Below are positions 8,805 to 33,344 of a stretch of DNA of 53,938 bases, one piece after another. The position numbers were made by a program, and so were the translations under genes. How positions within the stretch are numbered: position 1 is the first letter of the stretch; each line of letters opens with the position of its first letter. This DNA comes from a virus. Location of the stretch: positions 1 to 53,938 of IMG/VR virus record IMGVR_UViG_3300009514_000034; one strand, given 5' to 3'. Under the pieces are notes generated by a model. The model saw only the letters and a program-made list of their open reading frames with translations, was not told the DNA's origin and did not search any database.

Positions 8805-10343
8805 ATGTCTGAAAAAGAACCTAAAAAGACCGTTTTTTGTCACGTATGCAAACAACAAACAAATCTAGTCATTGATAGTTTCTCCAGATATCACTTAAAA
8901 CCAAGTCATAATATCACTTTAAAAGAATATTATGATAAATTTATCAAAAAAGAAAATGAAGATATATGCAATAACGCAAATTGTCGTAATAAAACACTAT
9001 TTACCAGATTTTCTAAAGGCTACCGAGAATATTGTTCCAGACAATGCAGGAACAAGTGTAAAGACAGCATAAATAAAATAAAACAAAGTAATCTAAAAAA
9101 TCACGGCCATGAATCCCCATTCGTTGCATATAAAGAAAAAATTAAGAAAACCAATTTAAAAAAATATGGTTATGCGAATCCCTTTGAATCAAAAGAAATG
9201 CAGGATAGATGTAAAGATGTTATATATACAAAATACGGGGTGCGTAATATATCCGAAAGCGAAGACATTAAAAGAAAGAAACGAAAAACTTACGGGAAAA
9301 ATTATTGGAATACTTTTTTACTAAAACTGAAATTTAAAAAAATAAAACCTTTATTTAATTGCGAACATTATATATCCAGAAATCCCTTTAACTTTAAATG
9401 CTTGCGTTGTGGTAAAAAATTTATCAGAAACAGAACTGACCCTCAAGAAATTTTTTGTGGGTGTTTGGCAAATAGATCAAAGCACGAAGATGAAATAACA
9501 GATTATCTGAAAAGTATAGGTATAAAAAATATTGTCTCTAATAAATATTTTATAAATGATATAACCAAAAAGAGAAAATATGAATTAGATATTTATCTAC
9601 CCGAATATAAATTGGGTATAGAATTTCACGGCATATTTTGGCATTCAGATTTGTATGTAGACAAAAACTATCATCAGGATAAGTATTTATATTTTAAAAA
9701 TAAAGATATACAGGTAATTCAGATATTTCAAAATGAATGGCTTAATAAAGAACCCATAGTCAAATCATTACTAAAAAATAAATTAGATGTTAGTAACAAA
9801 ATATACGGAAGAAAATGTGTTGTTAAAGAAATAAGTTCTGATGAATATAGATTATTCCTAGAACATAATCATATACAAGGATATGCCCTGACAAAACACA
9901 GATTCGGATTATTTCATAATGATGAACTTGTATCCGTTATGGGATTTTCTAAAAGCAGATTCAGTGATGATTATAGTTATGAAATAATAAGGTTCTGTAA
10001 TAAATTAGAATGTTCCGTTATAGGCGGTTTTTCAAAATTATTAAAATATTTTACATTAAAAACTAACCCAAAAACTATTGTATCTTATTCTGATGTTCGC
10101 TATTTTGATGGTAAAGGATACTTATCTAACGGATTTACACAGGTACATTTGAGTAAGCCTAATTACTTTTATTTTAAACCTAATGAAATGGTACTATATA
10201 ACAGGTTTAACTTCCAAAAGCACAAATTAAAGGACAAATTAAAGAAATTTGATCCTGATAAGACCGAATATCAAAATATGCTGGAAAACAAATATCTAAG
10301 GATATTTGATGCCGGTAATCTGGTATTAGTAAAAAATATTTAA
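8805..10343 (+). CDS. Homing endonuclease of the Vsr-like EDxHD type
   Basis: A 512-residue free-standing endonuclease. The N-terminal 90 residues hold paired Cys motifs (CHVC, CNNANC, CSRQC) that suggest zinc-binding DNA recognition. Residues 95-165 contain repeated SNLKNHG / TNLKKYG / TKYGVRN units, as in the DNA-binding modules of phage homing enzymes. The catalytic part has ELDIYLPEYKLGIEFHG then FWHSD, giving Asp262, Glu273, His280 and Asp282 of a Vsr-like nuclease; QIFQNEW follows. The C-terminal 180 residues are a further domain common in such enzymes. It directly follows the capsid gene and its terminator, a typical homing site. It is very AT-rich and probably selfish rather than needed for growth. 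Confidence 0.8.
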   Translation: MSEKEPKKTVFCHVCKQQTNLVIDSFSRYHLKPSHNITLKEYYDKFIKKENEDICNNANCRNKTLFTRFSKGYREYCSRQCRNKCKDSINKIKQSNLKNHGHESPFVAYKEKIKKTNLKKYGYANPFESKEMQDRCKDVIYTKYGVRNISESEDIKRKKRKTYGKNYWNTFLLKLKFKKIKPLFNCEHYISRNPFNFKCLRCGKKFIRNRTDPQEIFCGCLANRSKHEDEITDYLKSIGIKNIVSNKYFINDITKKRKYELDIYLPEYKLGIEFHGIFWHSDLYVDKNYHQDKYLYFKNKDIQVIQIFQNEWLNKEPIVKSLLKNKLDVSNKIYGRKCVVKEISSDEYRLFLEHNHIQGYALTKHRFGLFHNDELVSVMGFSKSRFSDDYSYEIIRFCNKLECSVIGGFSKLLKYFTLKTNPKTIVSYSDVRYFDGKGYLSNGFTQVHLSKPNYFYFKPNEMVLYNRFNFQKHKLKDKLKKFDPDKTEYQNMLENKYLRIFDAGNLVLVKNI

Positions 10344-10429: not shown

Positions 10430-10906
10430 ATGAACAATAAAGAGAAATTTGAGAACTTTCTGGAATCCCTCAAGGGTAACGGACAAGATGTATTGATTGA
10501 ATCAGTAAAACAGGGATTTGAAGTCTGTTTTGAATCAAGTGAAAAAGAACAGGCCAATGCGTTATACAAGGAATTAGTATCAGAATATGGTAGATCGCAG
10601 GTAGATGATACTGTAAAAAAAATGCCTAAAAAAGTTGGTAGTTGGAATAAAGTTGCTTTTTTAAATGAAGTTAAAAGAGCAATTGACTCTGGAGATATAG
10701 ACGGATATATTGAAAAAGAATTGGAAATCGGTAAGGAAGTAAAGGAAAGGTCTAAAAGATCCGTGAAGGAACAATTACAAGATTTATCTGAAGAATATGG
10801 AGAAGACGAAGTTAAAGAAATTTTAGGAAAAATTGGTAAAAAAAGATTCCTTCAAAATAAAGATGAATATTTGCGTAAAATTAGACATGCTTTGGATATG
10901 AATTAA
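10430..10906 (+). CDS. Tagged internal (capsid-targeted) protein, transposon passenger
   Basis: A 158-residue member of the tagged family: KFENFLESLKGNGQDVLIE then SVKQGFEVCFE fills residues 5-35, with candidate gp21 sites after FLE and LIE. The body after residue 40 contains two copies of a ~42-residue unit: LYKELVSEYG...NEVKRAID and LQDLSEEYG...RKIRHALD. The copies share EYG, a KK pair and a final helix ending in A(I/L)D, so it arose by internal duplication. It is very basic and acidic, with no membrane segment. It has its own phage-type late promoter yet lies within the terminal repeats of a transposon. Delivery to the capsid interior is inferred; the activity of the body is unknown. Confidence 0.75.
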   Translation: MNNKEKFENFLESLKGNGQDVLIESVKQGFEVCFESSEKEQANALYKELVSEYGRSQVDDTVKKMPKKVGSWNKVAFLNEVKRAIDSGDIDGYIEKELEIGKEVKERSKRSVKEQLQDLSEEYGEDEVKEILGKIGKKRFLQNKDEYLRKIRHALDMN

Positions 10907-29428: not shown

Positions 29429-29893
29429 CTAACTATAACCAGCACTAGAAATTGCTTTCAATGTAACATCTTCGATAAAATCATTATTTACATTTAATGT
29501 ACCTACCGATTCTGCATTGTCATCATGAACTTCAACATCGTATGGTATACTATATTGATCAGTAGTTCCGCTTACATACAATTGAGGATCTTGTATGTTA
29601 TAATTTTCACGAATGTCATTTATTTGTTTCATTATATCAGGATATTTCTTTTGAAAATATTCATTTAATTTAACATGTGCTTTAAATGTAACATAATCTA
29701 GTCTTCCATTAGGTCCCCTTCCATCATCCTCTTCTACTGGATTAAACTCATAGTCATAATTTTTATCGAATTCAAATCTTTCAACTCCTTCATAACATGC
29801 ATGAAACCCCTGCTTTAAAGATTCAAGCAATGTATCCTGACCATTCCCCTTCAGGGATTCTAGGAAGGTTTCAAATTTTTGTTTTTTATTCAT
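29429..29893 (-). CDS. Tagged internal (capsid-targeted) protein
   Basis: A 154-residue tagged protein (KFETFLESLKGNGQDTLLE, then SLKQGFHACYEG); the second site is LLE/S, still within the gp21 rule. The body is mixed (VKLNEYFQKKYPDIMKQIND; QLYVSGTTDQYSIPYDVEVHDD), possibly a small alpha-beta domain. AAGGAC precedes the ATG, with an exact late promoter 20 bases upstream. First gene of a two-gene tagged operon. Confidence 0.75.
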   Translation of the reverse strand: MNKKQKFETFLESLKGNGQDTLLESLKQGFHACYEGVERFEFDKNYDYEFNPVEEDDGRGPNGRLDYVTFKAHVKLNEYFQKKYPDIMKQINDIRENYNIQDPQLYVSGTTDQYSIPYDVEVHDDNAESVGTLNVNNDFIEDVTLKAISSAGYS

Positions 29894-31922: not shown

Positions 31923-33344
31923 ATGAAAGAATCTAAAAATATCAAAAAAGCTATAGAAATCCCCGAATCTTTCCTTAAAGATTTAAAGATTTGCTTAGAC
32001 CTGCACCCCCCAGAATTTTCATTTAAGTATGATTTGGATCATTTTCTCTACATAGCCAGTAAAATCATACACATCAAGACATTTAAGAAATTTTCAAATT
32101 TGAAAAAAGTGCCTATCTCATCCGTGGTACTCAGATTCGAGATAGGTAAGCATTACAGGCGGTATCTTGAATACCTGCTAAAATACAAGTTCATAGAAAC
32201 AGATAATCATTACATTGTAAAATCTGAAGACAGGGAAGGTAAATGTAAGTGTTATTGTTTCTCCAGAAGGTATGCCAGTAAGGGGTATGAGAAATATGAA
32301 ATCACCAAAAAATCATTATTAAATAAAATAGAGTCTTGGAAGCATAGGCAATTCGGTAAAATGATAAGCGATGATATGCTATCTCACCTTTATTCCATGA
32401 TGAATAAAATAACCATCGACATGGATGCTGTTAAAATTTACCTATCTGAAGCTGTGAAAAGCAAAGCAATCACCCAGCGGAAGGCCAATATTGAACTCAG
32501 TAAGTGTGAGAAAATAAATGACAAGGAAACCAACCTATTTTTAACTAAGGATTCCTATGGCAGGGTTCATACCAATTTCACCAATATCTCCAAGCACATA
32601 AGGGAGAATTTTCTTTCTTTACATGGAGAAAAACTGGTTCACTTGGATATCATTTCTTCTCAGCCAGCTATGCTTTATAATTTATTCAAGGATTACCTTA
32701 TGGAAGTTCTTGATATTGTCGAAAAAAGACAGGAGGATGAGTATTATACTTCTCCGAAAGAATATAAGTGGAAAGGTGTTGATGTAAGGGATAAATATGT
32801 TAATAAGTCAAACAGTTATACTGGTAAGCATATTTACAGTAATAAGTTCATGCCAGTGGTGGAAAAACACGGCGAGGACTCGTACATGGATTTACTGGAA
32901 AAGGGTTTTGAAGAATTGACTTTTTATAAAAAATCTTTACAGGCCGATATATATGAAATTTTCCGTGATTCTTGGAAGCATTATTTCGGGGAGGATAGAA
33001 CCAGAAAAGAAATGAAACAGGAGTGGGTTTCCTATGTATTCGGTCAGAATAATTCTCCCGGTCATGATAAGTTTAAATATTTATGGGATGAAGAGTTTCC
33101 CATACTGAATAAAATTTTGAAGAATTTTAAAAATGGTAATCACAAACCTCTGTCTCATGAATTACAGAGAAAGGAATCTGATCTGGTTTTTAATAAATTG
33201 TGTCCCAAGATTGATAATATGAATATTGATTATTTCACAGTACATGACTGTGTAGTGGTGCCGGAATCAGTAGCTGATGATGTATATAATGTTTTCAGTA
33301 AAATCTTAAAAGAAAATAACGTTGTTACGGGTGTGGATTACTGA
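31923..33344 (+). CDS. Compact single-subunit polymerase with family A-like palm
   Basis: A 473-residue protein with the motif order of Pol I / T7-type polymerases. Before motif A it has GRVHTNFTNISKHIRENF (213-230). Motif A is HLDIISSQPAML (Asp242). The motif B-like O-helix is RKEMKQEWVSYVFG: Arg361, Lys365 four residues later, and Phe373-Gly374 at the Tyr-Gly position. Motif C is FTVHDCVVVP (His441-Asp442). The Glu usual in HDE is Cys, as in the HDC/HDS of single-subunit RNA polymerases. No exonuclease domain is present and the fingers are short. It could be a DNA polymerase, RNA polymerase or primase-like enzyme; T4 has no counterpart. Convergent with a tagged gene, with a 7-base overlap. 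Confidence 0.6.
   Translation: MKESKNIKKAIEIPESFLKDLKICLDLHPPEFSFKYDLDHFLYIASKIIHIKTFKKFSNLKKVPISSVVLRFEIGKHYRRYLEYLLKYKFIETDNHYIVKSEDREGKCKCYCFSRRYASKGYEKYEITKKSLLNKIESWKHRQFGKMISDDMLSHLYSMMNKITIDMDAVKIYLSEAVKSKAITQRKANIELSKCEKINDKETNLFLTKDSYGRVHTNFTNISKHIRENFLSLHGEKLVHLDIISSQPAMLYNLFKDYLMEVLDIVEKRQEDEYYTSPKEYKWKGVDVRDKYVNKSNSYTGKHIYSNKFMPVVEKHGEDSYMDLLEKGFEELTFYKKSLQADIYEIFRDSWKHYFGEDRTRKEMKQEWVSYVFGQNNSPGHDKFKYLWDEEFPILNKILKNFKNGNHKPLSHELQRKESDLVFNKLCPKIDNMNIDYFTVHDCVVVPESVADDVYNVFSKILKENNVVTGVDY

Follow-up and report, generated by a model that had tools for sequence, protein, structure and literature searches.

A compact polymerase of the family-A (Pol I) type is encoded in the phage DNA analysed here, and it is a member of a real, conserved polymerase family that is widespread in huge phages and bacterial mobile elements. 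The best explanation of its function, to which we assign a probability of about 0.6, is that of an accessory DNA polymerase without exonuclease, tethered to DNA by a winged helix and used for synthesis of the repair or recombination type. The window, i.e. the whole stretch of DNA analysed, comprises all 53,938 bases of an IMG/VR virus record and is probably a piece of a larger phage. The open reading frame pointed out in an earlier sequence-only reading (31923-33344, 473 residues) is correct, as are the positions given there for D242, R361, K365, F373-G374 and H441-D442. The gene and its parts are as follows.

31923..33344, + strand: compact family-A-type polymerase gene (ATG start, 473 aa)
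32025..32297, + strand: predicted winged-helix domain of the DNA-binding type, about residues 35-125 (from the order of elements, low confidence)
32310..32522, + strand: helical region in the thumb position, leading from the winged helix to the palm, residues 130-200 (AlphaFold2 model)
32550..32603, + strand: entry motif D-x-Y-G-R-x-H-T-N-x-T ... R227, residues 210-227 (Pol I alignment)
32634..32672, + strand: motif A, residues 238-250, with catalytic D242 and S246-Q247-P248 (gap-free with Pol I D-Y-S-Q-I-E)
32709..32897, + strand: insertion separating motif A from motif B, about residues 263-325 (low confidence; relatives mostly without it)
33003..33050, + strand: motif B/O-helix, residues 361-376, with R361, K365 and F373-G374 (aligned with Pol I R..AK...F..YG)
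33162..33179, + strand: L-Q-x-x-E-S motif, residues 414-419, common to divPolA2 (conservation in 74 relatives)
33234..33254, + strand: motif C, residues 438-444, T439-V-H441-D442-C443 (high-pLDDT beta hairpin 438-447)

The AlphaFold2 model of the window protein, built with 62 sequences, has pLDDT values mostly near or above 90 for residues 150-473, with the exception of the insertion at about 263-325. Foldseek and VIA-align match this model to apicoplast Pol, T7 DNA polymerase, the Klenow fragment, Pol theta and Pol nu, the VIA-align Z scores to family-A DNA polymerases being 13.3-15.6 with 243-255 residues aligned. The alignment begins at about residue 145, and the best 50 VIA-align matches are DNA polymerases throughout, with no RNA polymerase among them. 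A palm is thus present (family-A match with Z 15.6), and the proposal that this is a small one-subunit polymerase from the superfamily of Pol I and T7 RNA polymerase holds. In the model motif A closes strand 236-243 and motif C sits in the hairpin 438-447, as in a palm, so the catalytic residues are probably clustered. Motif B forms helix 361-373 and the O-helix of the fingers is therefore present; the view that the protein is without the usual fingers was overstated, the motif-B/O-helix segment being gap-free with Pol I, though the fingers are short, motif C following motif B after 81 residues. The entry motif at residues 210-227 corresponds to the T-G-R-L-S-S ... R region of Pol I, and the modelled helical region 130-200 may work as the thumb. 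An exonuclease domain was not found in the window protein, in agreement with the sequence-only reading. Unlike classical Pol I, the protein has no match to Pfam DNA_pol_A (PF00476) at E up to 10, and this domain was likewise absent from the scans of its relatives. Pfam, PHROGs and NCBIfam offered no family for the window protein, scattered weak and unrelated matches being set aside, and PDB matches to CREB-binding protein and L21 are due to chance.

Relatives were identified by tblastn in five huge phages (595-735 kb) and on one Hymenobacter plasmid. The window protein matches the five phage proteins and the plasmid protein with phmmer E values of 1e-21 to 1e-26, the huge-phage homologues being 27-30% identical to it. 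A single-sequence scan of viral contigs gave no match; a profile search of IMG/VR added 90 further viral contigs with relatives, profile searching also placed relatives at seven bacterial loci, and the family gene is present in 16 of 395 Bacteroidota genomes. Matches in a Clostridioides phage and plasmid were discarded, as the protein lies behind the terminase gene (the portal position) and is without the polymerase motifs. The first collection comprised 68 distinct proteins, mostly of 385-424 residues, while residue conservation was counted over 74 aligned family members, which come from jumbo phages, bacterial mobile elements and, in one case, a plasmid. In all 74 sequences G213, R214, R227, D242, S246, Q247, Y344, K365, P393, E418, H441 and D442 are invariant, a set that includes D242, K365, H441 and D442 from the sequence-only reading. 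Q415 is kept in 73, F373 in 71 and G374 in 69 of the 74, the position of R361 is shared between arginine (48) and lysine (26), and position 443 is a serine in 70 sequences, the cysteine being found in the window protein only. At position 369 the window protein has a valine and the relatives a tyrosine, and in the family tree it forms a long branch. The polymerase gene evolves under purifying selection (median dN/dS 0.12 in 38 close pairs), and one family copy per record was found in the 16 records searched. The chromosomal copy in Draconibacterium orientale (L094 7980-9095) is broken, with an early end of the frame and the remaining palm encoded past several stops.

The domain preceding the palm was examined in a relative (L065), whose N-terminal 217 residues were modelled with a pLDDT of 84.6 and display the winged-helix order of helices and strands. 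Nearly all of the best structural matches of this model are winged-helix proteins, with Z scores of 7.0-7.9, led by the DNA-binding domain of a plasmid Rep protein (5kbj) and ORC subunits. At Z below 8, these matches suggest a winged-helix fold rather than close kinship to any of these proteins.

The designation of the phage as T4-like is upheld by PHROGs and Pfam matches, which identify portal and major head proteins in the window as well as replication and recombination genes: SbcC-like and exonuclease genes (gp46/47), a DnaB-type helicase, a gp32-like protein and a DnaG-like DNA primase. The polymerase gene is the lone plus-strand gene among minus-strand genes on both sides. A second recognisable DNA polymerase was searched for and not found in the window, which is an incomplete phage fragment. 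Two other features of the window may be recorded. A homing/HNH endonuclease gene (8805-10343) is located immediately behind the major head protein gene, and a nearly identical N-terminal tag of about 32 residues (MNKIxKFexFLESLKGxGQDxLIESVxxGFxxCxE) occurs in nine otherwise dissimilar small proteins, encoded by frames starting at 10430, 13352, 13825, 14172, 25959 and 26279 on the plus strand and at 29445, 29893 and 33712 on the minus strand. Judged by its sequence, the tag looks like a T4-style capsid-targeting leader that is cleaved by the prohead protease.

Among 41 relative records, 34 encode a family-B polymerase (PolB) and a single one, LR756511, a classical PolA (PF00476). As PolB is usually present, the polymerase studied here is additional to the replicase in most relatives. 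LR756511, a phage of 595 kb, yielded no PolB and has two tandem polymerases of family A, the 428-aa compact polymerase of classical type (L003 6167-7453) overlapping the end of the family homologue by ATGA. PolB appears to be split in six records (G010, G013, G016, G017, G029 and G032), the first third of the Pfam domain and its remainder being encoded in separate frames of about 450-530 aa, which in G010 are more than 100 kb apart. The phage loci share a gene of about 180-190 residues downstream (52 of 68) and one of about 440-480 residues upstream (47), and these flanking genes are highly conserved in most jumbo-phage relatives (L049 4102-5535; L051 6737-7321). No family could be assigned to either conserved neighbour, and the idea that the upstream one is a ligase-like nucleotidyltransferase found no support in Pfam and PDB searches. 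On Bacteroidota chromosomes, the polymerase gene in several cases lies beside or close to genes for tyrosine integrases and Sak4-like ATPases and to a conserved small gene, and the Bacteroidota copies are therefore placed in integrative elements.

Whether the family synthesizes DNA or RNA is the question on which its interpretation turns. Computation shows a family-A palm and O-helix, the conserved two-metal aspartates D242/D442 and the nucleotide-binding K365. The family profile is matched to family-A DNA polymerases with an hhalign probability of 31.7, rising to 70.6 when bacterial members are added, compared to 0.1-0.3 for a profile of T7-type RNA polymerases, which comprised T7-type enzymes only and gave no better values than reversed controls (about 0.1). 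A joint palm profile of the family and divPolA2 gave 90.7 against DNA polymerases and 1.0 against T7-type RNA polymerases, and searched against PDB sequences it retrieved Pol theta (E 0.0016), Pol nu (0.0019) and Taq Pol I (0.019), the sole RNA polymerase being phage RNAP2 at E 0.15. Since motif A aligns to Pol I without gaps, Q247 occupies the steric-gate position (D+5, a Glu in Pol I), where a bulky residue keeps ribonucleotides out in Pol I. This residue is Gln in 74 of 74 family members, Gly in 19 of 19 RNA polymerases and His, Glu or Trp in divPolA2, and from its position Q247 may likewise exclude ribonucleotides. A compact single-subunit RNA polymerase, in which the winged helix reads promoters and the palm transcribes a gene set of the phage or element, would account for the DNA-binding domain at the N-terminus and for the motif C, which is HDS in 70 of 74 relatives and HDC in the window protein and in its HDS form resembles the T7-type enzymes. 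The invariant Tyr 344 recalls the D-[IV]-Y motif of the latter. Yeast mitochondrial RNA polymerase and POLRMT are among the Foldseek matches (E 0.023-0.035), and the option of RNA synthesis was kept by the authors describing divPolA2 (PMC11348598). Against it stand the bulky Gln in place of Gly, the absence of a profile signal to T7-type RNA polymerases and the 81 residues from motif B to C, which leave scant space for a specificity loop. Hence the lean towards an RNA polymerase in the sequence-only reading is not borne out: the HDC on which it drew is a weak hint, the relatives having HDS, the profiles prefer DNA polymerases and the D+5 residue is Gln. The sequence evidence favours synthesis of DNA over that of RNA, and we regard an RNA polymerase as unlikely.

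It is still less probable that the enzyme is a site-specific replication initiator or primer-maker, with the winged helix on an origin of the phage or element and the palm adding the first nucleotides. The N-terminal VIA matches to the winged helices of ORC and to plasmid Rep-DNA (5kbj), with Z about 7-7.9, would agree with such a role, as would the occurrence of the gene on a plasmid and within integrative elements; however, a Z below 8 fits a merely common fold, the window encodes its own DnaG-like primase and PolB is found in most relative phages. A role solely as plasmid replication initiator, prompted by the Hymenobacter plasmid, was rejected, as that plasmid carries an annotated replication initiator of its own. 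Least probable of all is a different kind of synthesis, such as that of DNA on an RNA template or the addition of nucleotides without any template, for instance in conflict with the host or rival phages: the small fingers could loosen the demands on the template, but the motifs with which Pol I handles its template are kept and none of the contexts read showed a link to known defence genes. Taken jointly, the possibilities in which chains are started at defined DNA sites would make this a new class of winged-helix-targeted enzymes of about 400 residues in jumbo phages and Bacteroidota integrative elements, being either a minimal single-subunit RNA polymerase or a family-A primase, a reading that we consider doubtful.

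According to the preferred reading, that of an accessory DNA polymerase, the family-A-fold enzyme would act as a template-directed DNA polymerase alongside the T4-type replisome of the phage. The winged helix would bind double-stranded DNA and bring the catalytic domain to its place of action on the DNA, Q247 would keep ribonucleotides out, and short patches would be synthesized without proofreading in gap filling, lesion bypass or the extension of recombination intermediates. The fold and profile matches to DNA polymerases, the invariant Gln at D+5, the PolB genes of most relatives, the single family copy per record, the purifying selection, the replication and recombination genes in the window and the integrases and Sak4-like ATPases near the Bacteroidota copies count in favour of this role. 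Several observations count against it. At the level of sequence, motif C reads HDS or HDC where DNA polymerases have HDE, the position of Y344 is a His in Pol I, F373 lacks the hydroxyl that a Tyr provides in Pol I and T7 RNA polymerase, and the tyrosine seen in the relatives at position 369 is replaced by V369 in the window protein. Moreover, a polymerase that carries a DNA-binding domain would also fit the recognition of promoters or origins, and the conserved phage neighbours carry no repair signal.

The family implies that many jumbo phages hold a second, proofreading-free polymerase besides a full T4-type replisome, as a single-copy gene which is under strong selection and also occurs in bacterial mobile elements. 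A polymerase of about 400 residues with its own predicted DNA-binding domain, together with the range of Gln, His, Glu and Trp that occurs in nature at the residue selecting the sugar, would be of use in testing how DNA/RNA switching comes about in family A, and may become a tool. An answer on DNA or RNA synthesis for this family would in addition settle a question left by the divPolA2 work in 2024.

With the repair and bypass DNA polymerases of family A (Pol theta, Pol nu and Pol I) the family shares the core fold (Z 13-15.6) and the order of motifs A, B and C, but it is much smaller, has no exonuclease-like domain, carries a predicted N-terminal winged helix, and has Gln for the steric-gate Glu and HDS for HDE. 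With the single-subunit RNA polymerases (T7, N4, mitochondrial) it has the superfamily and the HDS of motif C in common, whereas the D+5 Gly of these enzymes (D-G-S-C-S-G) is replaced by Gln in every family member, their large promoter-binding and specificity regions are lacking and profile similarity to the T7-type enzymes is absent (hhalign probability ≤1.0). The top structural match, A0A8D9FR19 of an uncultured marine phage (BFVD, E 1e-17), is named 'Putative DNA polymerase I' and has, like the huge-phage relatives, about 400 aa; the names of all these proteins come from automatic or depositor annotation only.

The nearest described kind is divPolA2, reported by Yutin et al. in 2024 from Rheinheimera barbaviruses and Vibrio phages (PMC11348598), and a compact, exonuclease-less kind of PolA has thus been known since then. 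Aeromonas 4L372D_150 is a divPolA2 relative, and ORF100 of Vibrio phage ICP1 (L273 5179-6846), annotated as hypothetical, is a relative of the divPolA2 type with an extra N-terminal stretch of about 120 residues. Both families consist of a compact exonuclease-less family-A palm found beside PolB, with the motifs R, R, D-x4-[QHEW]-P, K, LQxx[ED]S and HDS in common and an hhalign probability of 98 over 182 palm columns. They differ at the D+5 position (Gln, compared to His/Glu/Trp in divPolA2), at the end of motif B (FG, compared to N-[ACG]) and in the N-terminal domains, that of divPolA2 having no known relatives according to its authors (PMC11348598) and being unrelated to the predicted winged helix (hhalign 0.2). 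The supplementary lists of that study may include some proteins of the present family. As the tree separates the two into distinct clades (100/99 support) and their N-terminal domains differ, the polymerase described here belongs to a sister family of divPolA2 and not to divPolA2 itself.
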